Below, in pieces: positions 831-13,392 of a DNA stretch of 64,000 bases (its first letter is position 1; each line of letters opens with the position of its first letter). The position numbers and the translations under genes are program-made. Source of the stretch: Archaeoglobi archaeon (lineage in GTDB: Archaea; Halobacteriota; Archaeoglobi; Archaeoglobales; Archaeoglobaceae); assembly GCA_029259415.1 (NCBI GenBank), contig JAPDIW010000044.1, forward strand, positions 27,716 to 91,715. Direction: 5' to 3'. The notes under the pieces are model-generated. The model worked only from the letters and a program-made list of their open reading frames with translations, searched no databases and was not told where the DNA came from.

Positions 831-900
831 TATTTTTACTTTATTTCCTCCGAAGACTTTTGTACCTTAACTTTGTACCTTTAACGTAGCTATCAATTCT

Positions 901-920
901 TTAGCAATCTTTTTTGCTAA
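901..920. repeat. Small inverted repeat TTAGCAA-n6-TTGCTAA downstream of rpl10e
   Basis: Direct reading; a T-rich loop separates perfect 7-bp arms. Function unknown. Confidence 0.5.
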
Positions 921-1145
921 GTTTAAATAAGTAGATTGTCAGTTCAGTTTTATATTTCCGATTTTAAATTTTTCTTAAAAGCATATATGTTAGCACAATT
1001 CTAACAACACCACTCATCAGTGGATAAACGCAGTTAGTAAAGACCTGTGCATCTGTATGGACAAACAATAGGACTCAATTACCTTCTTCATGCTGAGCAC
1101 CCAATCAAAACCCAAATTTATATAATTCAGCAATCATGACGTATT

Positions 1146-1670
1146 CTAACTTAACCTTCTTATTAAGCCAATTCCAAGCAGGAATCTTGGCAATTCAAGG
1201 ATTGAAGCGATGATTACGACAGAAATTGGCAGTGCAGCCATACTAACTTGAATGCTCAGCCAGTTTATAGCAGTAATTACAACTCGGTTTAGCAGAGTGC
1301 ATTGTAAAAATTCAGGATTGAGGCCTGTGAAATCGTAATATCCGGCTCCATCTGCCAAGTATATTAAGAGTCCTTCCGTAAATTGAAGAGGAATTCCATT
1401 TAAAGTTAAAGATACAAAGACCGTCGTTCTCGACACAACACCGGTAATCACGCGGTATAACAAGGTGGATAACGTTGTCCTCCAGAACACTGCGAGTACA
1501 AACGTAACCAATAGATAGCTTGTTTTATCTCCTGCTGGTGAATAGAACGCCATTGGAAATAGGGACAAATCGAGAAAAAAGTACAAGATTGTGCAAAAAA
1601 TGAGTACAATTAAATATATAGTTATTTTATTTCCTCTTAAGAAATTAAAAAATTGTTGATGCTCTTGCAT
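1146..1670 (-). CDS. Multi-spanning membrane protein, function unknown, downstream of secreted-protein gene
   Basis: 174 aa with several hydrophobic segments (ITIYLIVLIFCTILYFFL, TSYLLVTFVLAVFW etc.); start abuts the stop of the 1670-2188 ORF. Confidence 0.6.
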   Translation of the reverse strand: MQEHQQFFNFLRGNKITIYLIVLIFCTILYFFLDLSLFPMAFYSPAGDKTSYLLVTFVLAVFWRTTLSTLLYRVITGVVSRTTVFVSLTLNGIPLQFTEGLLIYLADGAGYYDFTGLNPEFLQCTLLNRVVITAINWLSIQVSMAALPISVVIIASILELPRFLLGIGLIRRLS

Positions 1671-2654
1671 TACGGACTCTCCCCTATCGTCTCATCTGTA
1701 TATACACAGGTGCTGTAGTCATTCTCTGCATCCATTCTGCTTCCCTCAACTGGATTTAGCCAAGTACTGAATGCTGTATCGGCCATAGATGGGTTGTTAT
1801 CGTTTTCGCCCATCGCATGGTTCCACGTGTTAGCGTATATTATTGGGTGTGTTCCTGTTGTGCTGAACGAATATACCTTCGCTCTTTCGTGTGCTGCAGT
1901 ATCCCATGTAGCTGATCCGCTGTAGATTGGGCTGATACTCCTCCACTCTCCGTAGAATGGGCTCCACCAGTAGATTTGAAGACCTATAAACGATAATCTA
2001 CTCACGCTTCCAGTACTTTTGTCAACAACTAGGAAGAATGTCTCTATATCTTCGAATCTCCCCCACGCTATGTAACGATACCAGTCGTATGCACCATCTA
2101 AGGTTGGATGGTCTTCATCATTGAAAACGTACGTAACCTCTATTATGTACTTTCCTGGAAGGTAAGTAGCCGTAAACATTTTCATCAAAAACCTTTGCGT
2201 ACGTTTTTATCAACCCGTTACCGTTGTTTATGTCAGAAGTCGGCTGATACAACTTTGGAAGGTAGTCGTATGCGACTGTAATGCTTGTCGCAGTAGACAA
2301 AACCTCTGCCTGCGCGTAGTATTCATAAGCTTTTAATTTCAGTCTTTCCTTTTCGATCGTCTTCTTCAGGACTTTAAATTCTTCATCGCTCAGTTCGATA
2401 CAATCAAGCTTCTTTAAAACAGCGTTAAACAGCCTCTCGAACTCTTTCCAATCTTCATCACTTAACTTATCTTTCGTCAGAATTTTTCTGATCTGATCTA
2501 CGCTCTTTTTGAACTCCTTATCACCCTTGTAGAGTTGCCTAAACTTCACTTCTTTTAGCTTTGTATCGCTGATACTTGTTGCAGTCACCGGGCACGCTAC
2601 ACTTACCACCATTACCAAAACCAGCAATATTGCCAGCACTGCTCCCATTCTCAA
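1670..2654 (-). pseudogene. Secreted protein (signal peptide), reading frame interrupted once
   Basis: ORF 2118-2654 starts with a signal peptide (MGAVLAILLVLVMVVSVACPVTA) and ends ...YAKVFDENVYGYLPSRKV...; ORF 1670-2188 continues ...TYLPGKYIIEVTYVFNDEDH... in another frame. A shift of one frame within about 2150-2185 would rejoin them. SD-like ggaggtga upstream. Confidence 0.6.
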
Positions 2655-2717
2655 CCACTTTCACCTCCTCCCCACCGTTCTCGCTTGATTGTCTTTACAA
2701 CCATAAATAAAACCAGC

Positions 2718-2747
2718 GAAAACGTTAGATAACCATCTAACATTTTC
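2718..2747. promoter_or_regulatory. 30-bp near-perfect palindrome, candidate operator (copy 1)
   Basis: GAAAACGTTAGAT-AACC-ATCTAACATTTTC: 13-bp arms with one mismatch, between divergent A/T-rich TATA-like boxes (ataaataaaacc / gtttaaaaaga). Confidence 0.75.
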
Positions 2748-2775
2748 ATAAGGTTTAAAAAGAGAAGAATTTGAA

Positions 2776-3303
2776 ATGCTCTATGTGGGGTTAAACTCGG
2801 AATCAGAAGTTGAGAAAAAAGAAATAGAAGAGCCTATAGAAAATATAAAGGTACTAACAGACAAAACGAGAATCTCTATTTTAAAAAACCTTACTAAGAG
2901 GAACTATACTATCTCAGAACTTTCAAAGCTACTGAACTTGACTAAGCCAACTGTCCTGTATCACATGAAAATTCTTGAAGGTGCAGGATATGTGAGAAGA
3001 ATTGAGAGCAATAGAAAGTGGGTTTATTATGAGATAACCAGTTCTGGCAAATCTGTTTTGAGGAGGAGGGAACTAAAAATTATTTTGCCTCTACTAAGTG
3101 CTGTTGCTTCAACAATCATATCATTTACAATCCTTCTATTAAAATCGATGAAGAGGAAGGGGGTTTCAGAAAGTCCAGTTTTGGGTATAGAGTATGATTT
3201 GTTACTTTTAATTTCTATCGCAATACTTATTATCTCTCTGTATGCTGCTTGTATTGCTATGAAGAAGGAAACGAGTTGTCAACCACACTTCCAAGGAGAA
3301 TAA
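2776..3303 (+). CDS. ArsR-type winged-helix transcriptional regulator with C-terminal transmembrane segments
   Basis: NIKVLTDKTRISILKNLTKRNYTISELSKLLNLTKPTVLYHMKILEGAGYVRR is a winged HTH; two hydrophobic helices follow (LLSAVASTIISFTILLL and LLLLISIAILIISLYAACIA). Confidence 0.8.
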   Translation: MLYVGLNSESEVEKKEIEEPIENIKVLTDKTRISILKNLTKRNYTISELSKLLNLTKPTVLYHMKILEGAGYVRRIESNRKWVYYEITSSGKSVLRRRELKIILPLLSAVASTIISFTILLLKSMKRKGVSESPVLGIEYDLLLLISIAILIISLYAACIAMKKETSCQPHFQGE

Positions 3304-3818
3304 CCACAGAAACCTCTACTAATAACGATAAATGTTACTGCGAAATTTATCAGAATCCAGTAAATAATTACCTTCTTTCTATTAGGTTGTTGGTATGCAT
3401 AACAAGACACATAACTCATCAAAATACTCCCTGGAATGCTTGCAGCTGAAAATAGAATATTATTAAGAACTTTACCTGAAATGCCCCAGAAAGCAATTTT
3501 ATTTATATCACCTATCACTCCGTAATTTCCTGTAAACTTATACAAAAGTAGAATTTCAGCTCTAAACATAATAATTGCTAATTCGAACCCTACTAAATTT
3601 AAAAACCATATAGCAAGAATAACTAACAGTACCCTATCCTTACTAGCTAATTTTGTGTTGCTAAACAGTGAAAAAGCGATTAGTGCAAGTGCACTCGATA
3701 TCAAAGAATAAAAAAGGGACGAAAAAGGAAGCCCAAGAATCCAAGGAAGAAGAAAGTCTGCAAGCATAATAAATAAAAATTTAGATGTACGTGTTACAAG
3801 ACCCTCTTTCCGTATCAA
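3279..3818 (-). CDS. Multi-spanning membrane protein, function unknown, downstream of secreted-protein remnant
   Basis: 179 aa with multiple hydrophobic segments; same size and position relative to a secreted-protein gene as 1146-1670. Confidence 0.55.
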   Translation of the reverse strand: MIRKEGLVTRTSKFLFIMLADFLLPWILGLPFSSLFYSLISSALALIAFSLFSNTKLASKDRVLLVILAIWFLNLVGFELAIIMFRAEILLLYKFTGNYGVIGDINKIAFWGISGKVLNNILFSAASIPGSILMSYVSCYAYQQPNRKKVIIYWILINFAVTFIVISRGFCGYSPWKCG

Positions 3819-4106
3819 GATCGCACCAGTTAAGCCAAGTGTCAGCGTTAGTTTCTACTCTAGCAGTGTGTGCACTTCGTTGATAACCAGCATCGATGTT
3901 TCCTGTGGCCTTATCCCAAAAGATGTCAGCCAATTTGCACACTCCGACCACCATATTCCCCCATCATAAATTTCACCAGAAGCTCCAATGACACACTGAA
4001 CTCCCTTATTGTTCAGGTAAGTAGCAAAATTATTTCCTGCCTCGCATGCAGCTACCACAAACACTCTGGTTAACACAAGCATAAACTCAATCCATGCCTT
4101 TTTCAT
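3769..4106 (-). pseudogene. Small secreted protein (possible caspase-like/C-terminal peptidase fragment), frameshifted
   Basis: ORF 3855-4106 reads MKKAWIEFMLVLTRVFVVAACEAGNNFATYLNNKGVQCVIGASGEIYDGGIWWSECANW...; the adjacent frame continues ADIFWDKATGNIDAGYQRSAHTARVETNADTWLNWCDLDTERGSCNTYI*, implying a frameshift near 3920-3945. SD-like ggaggtgaagg upstream of the start. Confidence 0.5.
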
Positions 4107-4161
4107 CCTTCACCTCCCCGCCATTTTTTGTTGTTATTTGTTTTAAGCATATAAAACCACT

Positions 4162-4191
4162 GAAAACGTTAGATAACCATCTAACATTTTC
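4162..4191. promoter_or_regulatory. 30-bp near-perfect palindrome, candidate operator (copy 2)
   Basis: GAAAACGTTAGATAACCATCTAACATTTTC, identical to copy 1 at 2718-2747; TATA-like elements on both sides are also shared (atataaaacc / ctttaaaaaga). Confidence 0.75.
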
Positions 4192-4256
4192 GTAAACTTT
4201 AAAAAGATCGTTAACCTTAGTTCATTCACTTGATCATATCAGAAAGTTTTTGATTT

Positions 4257-5669
4257 TTGAACCAACTTTTATTGATGCCCTCTTTAATGGTAGGTGGTAC
4301 TACAAGCAGTGCCGGGAAGAGTCTGATCGTTGCCGCCCTCTGCCGAATTTTGGCAAGAAGGGGCTATGATGTTGCTCCTTTTAAGGCTCAGAACATGAGT
4401 CTCAACTCCTATGTAACTAAAAACGGTAAAGAGATTGCGATAGCACAGGCCTATCAGGCTTTTGCTGCCGGGATAGAGCCGGATGAAAGGATGAATCCGA
4501 TACTGCTGAAGCCGAAGGGGGATTTCACTTCTCAGCTTGTTGTGATGGGTGAGGCTGCTGGAGATGTGGATTCAAGGAATTATTACGAAGAAGTTGAACG
4601 GCTGAAGAAGGTTGTTGAGGAAGCATATACGAGCCTCGCTGAGGAGTATGATGTTGTGGTTATTGAGGGTGCGGGTGGAATGGCCGAGATAAACCTCTAT
4701 GAGAGAGACCTCGCGAACATACACATTGCGAGGTTTGCCAGGCCCGACATAATCATAGTGGGAGATATAGACAGAGGGGGCGTGTTTGCATCCCTTTTCG
4801 GCACATACTCTCTTTTGCCCGAAGATATCAGAAGAATGGTGAAGGGGTTTGTTATAAACAGGCTGAGGGGTAGGGAGGATATTCTGCAGAGTGGGATAAC
4901 GCAGCTTGAGAGGCTGACCGGCATTCCCGTTCTTGGAGTGCTTCCCTTTCTTGACTACAACTTCCCCTCGGAAGACTCTTTGAACATTGATGAGTGGGGC
5001 AAAGAGGGTCCAGTGGGGATAGTAAGGCTGCCCAGAGTGTCGAACTTCACGGATTTTGAGTTCATAAGGGGTTATACGCGCTTTCTCGATCTGAACTCAG
5101 GGCTGGATAGATGTGAGGTGGTGATAATTCCGGGAACGAAGGACACCATTGCAGATCTGATGGAGTTGAAGAGGTCGAGGCTCGGTAAGGAAATTGTCAG
5201 AAAGGCGGGTGAAATTCCTGTTATAGGGATATGTGGTGGCTACCAGATCATGGGGAAAGAGCTGATTGATTACGGGGTGGAGCATGGGAAAGTCAGGGTG
5301 AAGGGGTTGGGACTACTTGACGCTGTAACGAGATTTGAGAACTACAGAAAGAGGACGGTTCAGGTGGTGAAAAGAGTTAGGGGAAATGCCGTGATTCTGG
5401 ACAAGATTGCCGGGCAGGAAGTCTGGGGTTACGAGATACACAAGGGCGTTACGGAGGCATCAAGGCCTTTGTTTGAAGATGAAGGGTGTGTTAGCGAAGA
5501 TGGGATGTGCTGGGGCACTTATCTGCACGGTTTGTTCTGGAATGCAAATGTTGTTGATGCCTTGGGGAAGTTTCTCGGTGTGAAAATTAAAAGGGAGGGT
5601 GACTGGGCAGAGGTTATTGCTGGGGAAGTGGATAGGAGGTTGAAGCTCGAAGCAGTTCTTGGCTTTTGA
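4257..5669 (+). CDS. cobQ: Cobyric acid synthase (adenosylcobyric acid synthase)
   Basis: VGGTTSSAGKSLIVAALCRILARRGYDVAPFKAQNMSLNSYVT..., C-terminal GATase domain (PVIGICGGYQIMG, YEIHKGVT). True start is probably ATG 4275 or 4287 rather than TTG 4257. Confidence 0.93.
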   Translation: MNQLLLMPSLMVGGTTSSAGKSLIVAALCRILARRGYDVAPFKAQNMSLNSYVTKNGKEIAIAQAYQAFAAGIEPDERMNPILLKPKGDFTSQLVVMGEAAGDVDSRNYYEEVERLKKVVEEAYTSLAEEYDVVVIEGAGGMAEINLYERDLANIHIARFARPDIIIVGDIDRGGVFASLFGTYSLLPEDIRRMVKGFVINRLRGREDILQSGITQLERLTGIPVLGVLPFLDYNFPSEDSLNIDEWGKEGPVGIVRLPRVSNFTDFEFIRGYTRFLDLNSGLDRCEVVIIPGTKDTIADLMELKRSRLGKEIVRKAGEIPVIGICGGYQIMGKELIDYGVEHGKVRVKGLGLLDAVTRFENYRKRTVQVVKRVRGNAVILDKIAGQEVWGYEIHKGVTEASRPLFEDEGCVSEDGMCWGTYLHGLFWNANVVDALGKFLGVKIKREGDWAEVIAGEVDRRLKLEAVLGF

Positions 5670-6006
5670 GTTATTAAGTCCTCTTCTTCTGGTAGAGAGA
5701 AATCTTAAACCCACACAATATTTTACTTAATCCCTATTCAAAACTTCTTAGTAATATCAACCTTGCTATCGGTCGTCAAAGATGTGACTCTTTTCAAAAA
5801 TACTGACTTACAGGTCAAAGAAACCCGGAAAACTATTCCCTGTTCGCAAGGCCGACGAACGTATGCTAAAAAATTTTATAACATTCACTGACGTTTTAAG
5901 GTCTAAGTGAAGAGTTATAAGCCCGTCAAATATGCAAGAAGAAATAAAGTTTCAAAACCGGGGATAGTACCTGAAAAATCCCAATTAAGAGATTACAAAC
6001 TCATTC

Positions 6007-8963: not shown

Positions 8964-10172
8964 CTAAAACACCTTCGAGTATGGTTCTACAAAACCGCTG
9001 ACGACGGCTCCAGGGCCTATACAAACATTATTCCCTATTATGCTTCCGACATTTATCGAGGCGTTTATTCCGGTTTTAACGTTATCGCCTATTGCTGCAC
9101 CAAACTTCTTCCTGCCGGTTCTTACAGCTTTTCCTTTAACGTTCACGACAACCTCACTCTCATCCAGCCTGAGATTTGCGATCTTTGTTCCTGCACCGAA
9201 GTTGCAGTTTTCACCTATAACAGAGTCACCAACATAGTTGTGATGCGGAAGTTTAGTGCCTGCCATAATTATTGAGTTTTTAACTTCTACCGCCGCTCCA
9301 ATGTGACAGTTATCCCCAATTGATGTGTACGGCCTTATGTAGCAGTTGGGGCCTATTCTGCAGTTTTTCCCTATTATAACGGGGCCAACAATATATGCTC
9401 CGGACATAATTATGCTGCCTTCTCCAACAACAACATTCCCTTTTATGGTTGCATTCTCCTCAACTTCACCATCGATTTTCGATTCAATGTCTCTTAGAAG
9501 CTCTTCATTCGCTTTAAGCAGATCCCATGGATAGCCAACGTCAATCCACCTTTCAATTTTCACAGCTTTAAACTCAAACCCTTCCGAGATTGCCATGGTT
9601 ATAGAGTCCGTAATCTCGTACTCCCCTCTGACCGAAACGGGCGTCTTCTTCACGTAGTCCAGTATCTCTTTCGTGAAAGCGTATACTCCGGCGTTGATAA
9701 GGTTAGATTTCGGTTTTTCTGGCTTTTCGATTATTCTGCTCACCTTTCCGTCAGCAACCTCCACAACGCCAAAATCTTCGGGATTTGGGACCTCGAAAAC
9801 AGCTATTCCGTTTCTTTCCTTTACGATCTTTTTCAAGTCGTCTTCAAAAACTATTGCGTCTCCATTGAGCATGAGAAATCTGTTTTCGAGAATGTGTTCA
9901 GCAGACAGCAAAGCGTGGGCTGTGCCAAGCTGTCTGCTCTGTCTGACATATTTGATTTTCATCCTGTTCCACTTATCGCCGAAATAACTTCGAATGGCCT
10001 CATCTCTGTATCCGACTACAATTACCGCTTCGTCAACTCCTGCTTTAGCCAGCTCCTCCATCAGATGTTCAAGAATTGGGCGATTAGCTACAGGAAGCAT
10101 CACTTTGGGTCTAGTGTAGGTTAAGGGGCGCAATCTTGTTCCTTCTCCGGCTGCGAGTATGATGGCTTGCAC
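8964..10172 (-). CDS. Sugar-1-phosphate nucleotidyltransferase with left-handed beta-helix (GlmU-like; paralogue of preceding gene)
   Basis: MQAIILAAGEGTRLRPLTYTRPKVMLPVANRPILEHL plus hexapeptide repeats. Confidence 0.88.
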   Translation of the reverse strand: MQAIILAAGEGTRLRPLTYTRPKVMLPVANRPILEHLMEELAKAGVDEAVIVVGYRDEAIRSYFGDKWNRMKIKYVRQSRQLGTAHALLSAEHILENRFLMLNGDAIVFEDDLKKIVKERNGIAVFEVPNPEDFGVVEVADGKVSRIIEKPEKPKSNLINAGVYAFTKEILDYVKKTPVSVRGEYEITDSITMAISEGFEFKAVKIERWIDVGYPWDLLKANEELLRDIESKIDGEVEENATIKGNVVVGEGSIIMSGAYIVGPVIIGKNCRIGPNCYIRPYTSIGDNCHIGAAVEVKNSIIMAGTKLPHHNYVGDSVIGENCNFGAGTKIANLRLDESEVVVNVKGKAVRTGRKKFGAAIGDNVKTGINASINVGSIIGNNVCIGPGAVVSGFVEPYSKVF

Positions 10173-10222
10173 GAATTGAGAATAGCTCTAAAATTTATAT
10201 GCCTTTAGGTCTTATAGGTTTT

Positions 10223-11331
10223 GGGACAAAACTCCCAGATCACTCTTTGAGGATTATAACGTAAGCACTCTTCCCAATATACTTCTTCGGAACACTTACC
10301 TACGCTGAATTTCCGAAGAGTGTAACCCTTTTTTCGAAAACAATCTCCACCTCATCTTCCAGCACAAACTTACCTTCCTTAACCTCGATCCTTCTCACAT
10401 TCAGTATATCTATGGAAATACTCAAATTTTCCATTGCGTCCTCAGCATGATTACACCCCAGAGTGACAAAGAAGACTGTAAGAGAGATTCTGGAGCTTTT
10501 GGATGAGGTTATGAAGAGATAAAACTGGAAGAGAAGGCAAAGTATCCCTATGCAGAATGGGAAAGAAGAAGAGAGACTGTAAAGGGGAGGCTGAGAAATC
10601 TCCCAAAATATGTTAAAGAAGCTTGCAACATCCGAATTGAGAAAAGGATAGGAAACCAAAGAAGGTTGACCTGGAGAAGAGAGTCATGCTATTCTTGTTT
10701 GCAAGGTTGATGGGTAAGTCCAACAAGGATGTTGAAGAGCTGCTTGAGCTTTTTGAGCCCTTATTTGGGATCAAAGTGAGTTACAAGACCATACAGAGGC
10801 TTCATTCGGATGAAGAGGTGAAGATTGTTCTGCACAACCTCTTCATCCTTCTGCTTGAAAGAAGAGGGGGTTTCAGGTGATTTCTCTAAAGATGGAAGGT
10901 TACAGCCTAACCATAACCAGGCATTACAGGAGCAATCCCAAAAAGGATTTTCGCTATGTTTTCAGGATAATTGACCTCGATACTGGGATGTACGTCGGGA
11001 CAGGTTATTCTGCAAGATCTGAGAAGGAGGCTTTTGAGAAGGCTACGGAAATGATGAAGAAATTGGGATAACTTTGAGGATGTTTAACGCTGAAACTGCT
11101 GTATATTCCTCGGAAAATTGGCGAGAATTGGCTTTGACTGGCTGAAGGTTATTGAGAGGATTGCTAAGGCCCCTACAACTTTCTGGAGAGGTATTTCAAG
11201 AGGAATTTGAAGAATCAGGTTTGGATGGGTGGTGAGGCAGAGGAGAAAGGATAAAAGAGAGATGACCCTATTTTGCTGTTGGTTTGCTACACAATCTGTT
11301 TGCAGTGAGGGTTATGGGGTAGTTTTGTCCA
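10223..11331 (+). mobile_element. Degenerate insertion sequence with transposase relic (+) and DUF2080-like relic (-)
   Basis: Candidate terminal inverted repeats GGACAAAACT (10224-10233) and AGTTTTGTCC (11321-11330). Between them a transposase-like frame with shifts (KLEEKAKYPYAEWERRRETVKGRLRNLPKYVKEACN..., MLFLFARLMGKSNKDVEELLELFEPLFGIKVSYKTIQRL..., MEGYSLTITRHYRSNPKKDFRYVFRIIDLDTGMYVGTGYSARSEKEAFEKATEMMKKLG, VGLLHNLFAVR). On - strand 10240-10440: ILNVRRIEVKEGKFVLEDEVEIVFEKRVTLFGNSA + VSVPKKYIGKSAYVIILKE*. Confidence 0.75.
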
Positions 11332-11557
11332 AAGTCGGTCTTACATTTATGCAGCCCTATAAGATCACAATTTCGGAGTGTATAGTTCATTGGGAATAAA
11401 ATAAATGTAGTATTTACAGGAGGAAAGAAGTTTTATAATGAGAGAACATTTTAAGTAAGTAAATAGCTTCTCTATATAAAACTTAGCAAGAAATTCACGA
11501 ATAATAGAGCGAAATTCAGAGTACACGAAAGAAAAATAAAACCAATAACCCAACATT

Positions 11558-12460
11558 GTGTATATGAAAATCTTAATTACTGGTGCGTCAGGACAAATCG
11601 GCTCATATGTTCTGGAGAGGTTTGTGGATAAACATGAGGCTATTGGAGTAGATTTAAAGCCCTGTCCGATTAGGGATTTGAGAGATCTGGTATTTCAGGG
11701 TGATTTGAGAGATTACAAGTTTGTAAGAGAAATTATTAAAGATGTTGATGCTATAATTCATCTAGCAGCTCAAGTCTCTGTTGAGAACAGCTGGAACAAT
11801 CCGATTGACGATGTTGAAAACAATATCATTGCGACGATTAACCTTCTGAAAGCGTGTTCTGACCATGGGGTAGATAGATTCGTTTATATTTCATCAGCAG
11901 CGGTTTACGGAAATCCTCGTTATGTTCCGATTGATGAAGAACATCCGAAGAATCCAGTTTCTCCGTATGGAGTTAGCAAGCTTTCTGGAGAATACTACTG
12001 CAGGATTTTCTCAGACAGTGTTCATACTGTTATCATTAGACCTTTTAACGTCTTTTCGGCAAGAATGGATCCAAATAATCCCTATTCGGGTGTTATAGCC
12101 AAGTTCATCTCTAGAGTTAAGCAGAAGCTACCCCCAGTGATTTACGGAGATGGTAAGCAGACGAGAGACTTTGTTAATGCCAGGGATGTAGTTGATTTTG
12201 TGGAGATAACCCTAAAGAAAGGAGAAAAAGGGAAAGCTTATAATGTTGGAACTGGAAAAGAGACTTCTATTTTAAATCTGGCTAAGGCAATAATGGATAT
12301 TGCTGGAGTGAAGGGCAAGCCAGTTTTTGATAAGCCTCGAAAGGGCGATATTAAAAGGAGCTGTGCAGACATATTCAAAGCTAAAAAATTAGGATTTAAA
12401 CCGAAAACTGATTTGAGGAGAGATCTAGAGGAGATCTTTGAGGAGTATGCGAGTGATTGA
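11558..12460 (+). CDS. NAD-dependent epimerase/dehydratase (UDP-glucose 4-epimerase-like)
   Basis: MKILITGASGQIGSYVLERF..., SAAVYGNP, YGVSKLSGEYY (YxxxK). Confidence 0.9.
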   Translation: MYMKILITGASGQIGSYVLERFVDKHEAIGVDLKPCPIRDLRDLVFQGDLRDYKFVREIIKDVDAIIHLAAQVSVENSWNNPIDDVENNIIATINLLKACSDHGVDRFVYISSAAVYGNPRYVPIDEEHPKNPVSPYGVSKLSGEYYCRIFSDSVHTVIIRPFNVFSARMDPNNPYSGVIAKFISRVKQKLPPVIYGDGKQTRDFVNARDVVDFVEITLKKGEKGKAYNVGTGKETSILNLAKAIMDIAGVKGKPVFDKPRKGDIKRSCADIFKAKKLGFKPKTDLRRDLEEIFEEYASD

Positions 12461-12529
12461 AATTGAAACTCATTCATTAAATACACAAAGTTTATAATAC
12501 TCAGATTCAAATCAGGAGAATAGGCGGCA

Positions 12530-13392
12530 ATTAGACTAAAGCGATATCTAGCTTCTTAGCCCCCTCTCTTACCTTCTTGGCATGATGCGATCTGAAGTTA
12601 TCCAGAACAATGACTATTGTTTTCTCCAGAATTCCTATTCCTTATCTTCTCCAAAAATTCACATACAGATTCCTTTTTAGAGTCTTCTTTGAAGTCAACA
12701 ACGCTTTCTCCATTTATAGCATAGAAACCGAAAGTGTTGGCTCTAATCTTTGCTGTGTTCTTCCTCACAGATGGTTTATTGAATGACCAAAGCCTCTGAG
12801 TGTTTGAAGTAAGTTGCGGAGAGGTTTCATCCAGAAATCCTATGATGCAAGTTTCCAGTTCAAGTTCTTCAAGTTTTTTTAAACACCTCTTCTTGCATTT
12901 TCAGGCCTTCTGTAATCCTTTGGATAGGGCTTGGCGTATTTCATGCCAATGATTTTAGTATTCTGCTCACGTGCCTTAGGGAGTATTCCACTCCAAACTT
13001 CTCCTTGATGAGTTCTCTCACCTCTTTTGTTGTCCAGTAGTTTCTCTCTTTCAGAATGGCTTTCAACTCTTCTTTCTGCTCATCGCTTAACTCAGAAGGT
13101 CTTCCTCCTCCGTAGTTCGGTTTCAAACCTTTCAAACCCTGTTTGTTCCACCTTTCAAGCCATACATAGCCTATAACTTTACTTACTCCTACTTCTTTCG
13201 CTGCTTGAGGAACTGTTGCCCCTTTATACAGCTCTTTGATGAAGAAAAGTTTTCTCAGGACTTCAGAGCAGATTTTTCTCTTTCGAATTTCTTCGTTCAG
13301 CTCTTCCAAGGTTAGCCATCTAACAACTTCTTTTTCGGGTTTTCTTCCCGTGTGTTTGTTTTGTAGTATTGGTTAAAAATGTTTTGTCTAAT
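12530..13392 (-). mobile_element. IS630-like element, transposase in two frames (likely degenerate)
   Basis: ORF 12941-13309 is an IS630-type N-terminus (GATVPQAAKEVGVSKVIGYVWLERWNKQGLKGLKPNYGGGRPSELSDEQKEELKAIL); the DDE half follows out of frame (CIIGFLDETSPQLTSNTQRLWSFNKPSVRKNTAKIRANTFGFYAINGESVVDF). Candidate ends ATTAGACTAAA (12530-12540) / TTTTGTCTAAT (13382-13392). Confidence 0.75.

Follow-up and report, generated by a model that had tools for sequence, protein, structure and literature searches.

A decaying cassette in an Archaeoglobaceae genome may encode a regulator-controlled secreted peptidase effector with a protective membrane partner

The window studied here, a stretch of 64,000 nucleotides from the draft genome G000 of an Archaeoglobaceae archaeon (1.94 Mb in 104 contigs), carries a compact gene cluster between rpl10e (306-830) and cobQ (4257-5669). 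The initial annotation had placed a module of one regulator, two secreted proteins and two membrane proteins at 1146-4191; the module does lie there, and its true extent is about 833-4242, one discrete insertion of about 3.4 kb. In six congeneric genomes this site is empty, with rpl10e directly followed by cobQ. The window segments 226-832 and 4243-5672 are contiguous in genome G004 (L122; 95% and 91% identity, respectively), and the approximately 3.4 kb between them therefore represent a single insertion; a gain in G000 is preferred because it is simpler than six losses. The insertion is AT-rich and has clean junctions. Terminal repeats, a target duplication and an integrase frame, which characterize transposons and integrative elements, were looked for in 833-4242, and none was seen. 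A phage or plasmid origin was rejected, since neither IMG/VR nor plasmids contained relatives and no meaningful PHROG match was obtained, and so was a known defence system, as PADLOC matched only via a generic helix-turn-helix (HTH) domain. A literature search found no description of the module, which had rightly been left unnamed. Five open reading frames of 172-179 aa lie in the insertion; in Markov shuffles (n=200), the longest frame averaged 85 aa and reached at most 156 aa.

Between two operator/secreted protein/membrane protein units, both on the - strand, sits the open frame of a regulator (2776-3303, + strand) consisting of an ArsR-type winged HTH (Pfam HTH_5, 6e-13) and two C-terminal transmembrane (TM) helices, visible as two hydrophobic segments; TM helix counts are hydropathy-based throughout. 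A DNA-binding domain and a TM region joined in one chain define the membrane transcription regulators (TTRs). In these membrane one-component regulators, represented by ArnR and ArnR1 of Sulfolobus, an N-terminal HTH is combined with two C-terminal TM helices, and inverted-repeat boxes are present in the target promoter (PMC6396743, PMC10269533). The window regulator shares this architecture and has inverted-repeat operators, but it lacks a HAMP or sensor domain between the HTH and the TM helices, its HTH is of the ArsR type, and its targets are different.

A palindrome had been reported ahead of each secreted gene on the - strand, and two identical copies are indeed present. Operator 1, GTTAGATAACCATCTAAC (2724-2741), lies between the divergent regulator gene and secreted copy 1 and has BRE/TATA-like sequence on both sides; operator 2 (4168-4185) is located upstream of the relic of secreted copy 2. 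They are the only perfect matches in the 1.94-Mb genome, and the 57-bp block around each is conserved between the two at about 91% identity, with an exact core of 30 bp. Counting both window copies, the element was located at seven sites; the other five are spread over four loci (L029, L034, L027, and L028), each with the form of operator 1, and the flanks are conserved (WTTTTCG.AA, then a TATA-like sequence). The counterpart of operator 2 in L029 (at 8866) has the corresponding position, upstream of an intact peptidase-like gene. Other genomes have this form at equivalent positions, so the palindrome is not a product of chance. Its placement just outside BRE/TATA on both sides would, by general experience with archaeal promoters, fit activation better than repression. 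A pattern scan revealed one further operator-like palindrome, GTTAGCACAATTCTAAC (989-1005; GTTAG-N7-CTAAC, with a spacing one base shorter), which may be a degenerate third operator; no gene follows it, and it possibly marks a lost third unit. The repeat AAGCATATA is common to this area, in the insertion's left arm, and the operator 2 region.

The two secreted genes read from 2654 and 4106 on the - strand. As annotated, each starts with a signal-like segment and is preceded by a Shine-Dalgarno sequence, GGAGGTGA (2661-2668 and 4109-4116, both - strand), and these leaders are complementary to the 3' end of 16S rRNA (TCACCTCC on the + strand). Neither gene is intact, and the initial annotation had not recognised the extent of the damage. 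Copy 1 (2654-1670) is split by one frameshift at about 2120-2185 into an N-terminal frame with the signal peptide (2118-2654, - strand; NF047489 E=8.8e-5 on residues 128-154) and a C-terminal frame with an Lsa23-like domain (1670-2188, - strand; NF047489 E=6.1e-17, family HMM E=1e-13) that contains the motifs DEDHP, YD..R..GR.ED.E.F and WNHAM. A programmed frameshift finds no support, since the relatives are all single frames of 300-330 aa. The NF047489 model, which describes the Leptospira surface adhesin Lsa23, is matched by 10 of 11 copy 1 relatives and best by the window fragment, whose 61.6 bits, against an equivalog cutoff of 270, indicate a homologous and not the same protein. The archaeal proteins differ from Lsa23 by an extra helical N-terminal part and by the gene for a 4-TM partner, and the role of Lsa23 in adhesion or complement binding (PMC5174078) cannot be carried over to them. 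Matches of this family to FtsH in a PDB sequence search were limited to the helical part and were disregarded.

Relatives of copy 1 span several families of the phylum (15 of 394 genomes, one copy per genome); in 9 of the 11 relatives examined the gene is directly followed by the 4-TM gene, and no peptidase was seen in the neighbourhoods examined. This pattern looks physiological and would suit a role in envelope stress or surface remodelling, in which the regulator would respond to the state of the envelope by switching on a secreted protease and a surface protein, both directed at the cell's own envelope, and the TM proteins would serve as anchors, chaperones or protease regulators. Such a role would also agree with the low dN/dS of the secreted proteins and with the regulator's likeness to ArnR and other membrane one-component regulators that govern surface structures (PMC6396743). 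The distribution, being patchy and insertion-borne, speaks against it.

TM1, the partner of copy 1, is a 174-aa multi-TM protein encoded by an open frame (1146-1670, - strand). The only relative found (L039:1414-1860 in genome G044; 37% identity) is encoded directly upstream of a halocin C8-domain protein (TIGR04449; 25.4 bits for its C-terminus, cutoff 24). The surrounding locus of this Archaeoglobaceae genome (contig C13, 213-3111) is bacteriocin-like and comprises genes for a 290-aa secreted protein, the TM1 relative, the 242-aa halocin C8 protein, and another TM protein; its secreted proteins have no detectable relationship to copy 1. An ArsR-type regulator, a membrane immunity protein and a secreted product are likewise united in the SdpRI/SdpC locus of Bacillus. 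The window module differs in that its regulator itself carries TM helices and scores far below the cutoff of the SdpR model, and the window proteins gave no match to SdpI, SdpC or the Cys-rich C-terminal halocin C8 domain (TIGR04449).

Copy 2 (4106-3781) has undergone an internal deletion of about 1 kb and a frameshift, which left the signal peptide and the last ~100 residues, as judged from a relative of ~427 residues. Its first frame (3855-4106, - strand) joins the signal peptide to the Cys half of a caspase-like domain (VFVVAACEAG), the PepSY-like region and the His half being deleted; the second (3781-3954, - strand), is the C-terminal part of this domain; it is 84% identical to the C-terminus of L029:7520-8803, against which it shows a one-base deletion. 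The His-Cys dyad of clan CD is thus incomplete in the window, and because the His half is lost, the relic cannot be an active clan CD-like enzyme. Sequence errors in the draft assembly could contribute to the window frameshifts; the ~1-kb deletion cannot be such an error.

An intact form of the module is found in another genus (G024; L029). There, a regulator with 56% identity to that of the window is divergent from the gene for a 305-aa secreted protein, which is followed by that for a 121-aa TM protein, a second operator, and the genes for a 427-aa secreted protein (L029:7520-8803, peptidase-like) and its 168-aa TM partner (L029:7032-7538). The two operators, GTTAGGTGAGTATCTAAC and GTTAGATGAATTTCTAAC, stand one ahead of each secreted gene. 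This module shows that the ancestor of copy 2 was secreted and combined a PepSY/YcdB-like N-terminus with a predicted clan CD (caspase/legumain)-like domain. The module is real, and its window copy, in region 833-4242, is an acquired cassette in decay.

The peptidase-like gene was detected in 5 of 394 genomes, confined to two genera of the sample, and at every locus found it is followed by a gene for a TM protein of 130-195 aa. The motifs SGHG and AC are invariant in six copy 2 relatives (SGHG...SACYAG in the intact G024 form, with His307 and Cys340 of L029:7520-8803 as the putative dyad) and follow the order of the clan CD dyad. As in legumain (C13), caspase (C14) and gingipain (C25), His-Gly precedes Ala-Cys, each after a hydrophobic strand-like segment; a Gly next to the His is stated for all clan CD families (PMC4357240). 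When the C-terminal domain alone was compared with Pfam, three matches were obtained: Peptidase_C13 (E=0.017; 15.1 bits against a cutoff of 22.8), Peptidase_C14 (E=0.039, below the cutoff), and an unrelated one (E=0.099); the best two of these three fall on the His-Cys dyad. The family differs from clan CD peptidases in that it stays below all cutoffs, with a fold that is predicted at most, and in its N-terminal part, whose likeness to YcdB/PepSY proteins is also below the cutoff (DUF4901 2.4e-5 to 3e-3, PepSY 0.008). Two AlphaFold runs from three-row alignments reached pLDDT values of 40 and 37, and PDB sequence searches returned nothing for either this family or DUF6345. On these sequence data, the best reading of the copy 2 ancestor is a predicted clan CD-like secreted pro-peptidase.

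Close paralogs of the regulator adjoin genes for secreted DUF6345 (PF19872) proteins, five of them directly divergent and often with the same form of operator. The DUF6345 proteins have the GHG...C order of the copy 2 family, and the regulator family is thereby linked to two kinds of secreted His-Cys proteins. The gene after that of DUF6345 encodes a membrane-anchored protein with motif-level similarity to the PepSY-like part of the copy 2 family. DUF6345 differs from this family in lacking a significant profile match to it; when profiles of the peptidase family were compared with those of DUF6345 and of the PepSY-like proteins, the matches were at the motif level only. No paper found by the literature search names DUF6345. 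One such locus in the genome under study (L027, contig C37, 4498-6563) combines a paralogous regulator and the operator GTTAGAGATTTTTCTAAC with divergently oriented genes for a secreted DUF6345 protein and a PepSY-like protein.

TM2 (3279-3818, - strand), the 179-aa multi-TM partner of the peptidase-like gene, is 58-60% identical to L029:7032-7538 and to L133:10424-10909 of genome G025. Both window TM proteins are open frames of about the 175 aa first noted, and the two operons have the proposed parallel layout. They are not duplicates: TM1 and TM2 have no detectable similarity, and the secreted proteins match different families. At the G025 locus syntenic to the G024 module only TM2 is kept, as the orphan L133:10424-10909, and the other 3.4 kb are absent. 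The orphan is 82% identical to its G024 counterpart with a dN/dS of 0.15, compared to 0.14 for neighbouring genes; it could have been left behind by a deletion so recent that decay has not yet set in. Seven open TM genes lack an intact peptidase gene (that of window copy 2, the L133 orphan, both in L056, the first in L053, the second in L054 and the second in L055), and none of the three intact peptidase genes lacks a TM gene; these counts are small and not independent, and gene length would by itself explain part of the asymmetry (7 vs 0/3). The two peptidase genes of G001 are truncated N-terminally, and the TM genes there are open. A second peptidase-like locus of the G000 genome (L053, contig C10, 3963-7120), which has no regulator, contains a nearly intact copy and a relic; in its first copy the reading frame is shifted downstream of the signal peptide and the TM gene is open, and its second pair, in which both genes are broken, is an exception to the pattern. 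As in effector-immunity pairs, the partner adjoins the peptidase gene at all loci and also exists alone, which the putative effector does not. Co-occurrence of secreted and TM genes elsewhere had been proposed as a test of the module and holds, both at every peptidase locus and for 9 of 11 Lsa23-like relatives.

That the TM proteins and the regulator of the window are functionless relics as well, merely not yet decayed, is unlikely. The damage to both secreted genes, together with the AT-richness of the insertion, goes part of the way towards the relic state that had been named as refuting the module; against that state stand the open frames of TM1, TM2 and the regulator (174-179 aa), the intact operators and Shine-Dalgarno sequences, and the constraint on TM2 between species.

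At nonsynonymous sites, the divergence of the TM partners exceeds that of the secreted proteins 3-7-fold (dN of 0.57 vs 0.08 in one pair and 0.32 vs 0.10 in another). Nutrient scavenging, with a secreted protease, a co-transcribed membrane protein for uptake or anchoring, and the membrane regulator as a switch, would be in line with exoprotease biology, as family knowledge of secreted proteases with a PepSY-like N-terminus implies. We regard it as quite improbable, since the TM proteins are small, evolve fast and match no transporter family, the module contains no peptide transporter, and orphan TM genes exist.

From the gene anatomy, operators, insertion, lesions, homology, co-occurrence and orphan partners, we infer the following course of events. 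The membrane-anchored ArsR-type regulator would bind the putative GTTAGA-N6-TCTAAC operators next to the BRE/TATA of the divergent promoters and, sensing at the membrane, would switch on both secreted-protein/membrane-partner operons. In the intact form in G024, one secreted protein would be a pre-pro-peptidase that is exported and activated, and the second an Lsa23-like surface or secreted protein. The peptidase would most likely act extracellularly, with the envelope proteins of neighbouring non-producers as its target, and the co-transcribed TM protein would protect the producer. The window, with its secreted genes broken and its TM genes and regulator open, may then represent a producer turned into an immune-only strain.

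We assign a probability of roughly 0.42 to a decaying, regulator-controlled cassette for a secreted peptidase effector and a protective TM partner. This reading is favoured over envelope maintenance because TM2 is intact beside broken or absent peptidase genes, never the reverse. Secreted genes have been lost repeatedly from beside TM genes that stayed, the G025 orphan among them, and this weighs against a role on the cell's own envelope, which we still consider a serious alternative at well below even odds. The effector reading is further supported by the arrangement of one regulator and two operators with the same layout in another genus, by the invariant HG/AC motifs with the C13 and C14 matches on the dyad, by the paralogous regulators beside DUF6345 proteins, by the constant adjacency and faster nonsynonymous divergence of the TM partners, by the dN/dS of the orphan and the open TM genes without an intact peptidase, by the halocin C8-domain gene beside the only TM1 relative, and by the patchy presence of the peptidase gene. 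Against it stand the clan CD matches below Pfam cutoffs, the low pLDDT values, the small lesion counts, and a secreted domain that is better conserved than its partner, which also separates the module from classical polymorphic toxins. The C-terminal domain of the copy 2 family is conserved and not swapped, unlike the exchangeable toxin domains that polymorphic toxins attach to a conserved trafficking module. Polymorphic toxin systems are reported to be rare in hyperthermophiles (PMC3482391), which likewise counts against an effector. The putative effector with a membrane immunity partner, put forward as speculation in the initial annotation, has gained support from the orphan TM partners and the TM1 relative.

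Little is known of protein-based antagonism in hyperthermophilic archaea. If the reading is true, the pairing of a secreted caspase-like peptidase with a membrane protein of its own, under a membrane-anchored switch, would constitute a new archaeal conflict or envelope-control module. Rather doubtful is the bolder proposal of a hitherto undescribed archaeal antagonism module, a small cassette that would spread among hyperthermophiles and leave orphan immunity genes in its wake; in it, the membrane-tethered regulator would co-induce two secreted products, an Lsa23-like protein and a caspase-like pro-peptidase, both paired with a membrane immunity protein of their own. The module ties together several uncharacterised families, namely the peptidase, DUF6345, the Lsa23-like proteins, and two or more TM families. 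At one of the peptidase loci (L055, contig C1 of G003, 9530-13286), three tandem paralogous secreted proteins of about 400 aa are encoded downstream of the peptidase and TM genes.
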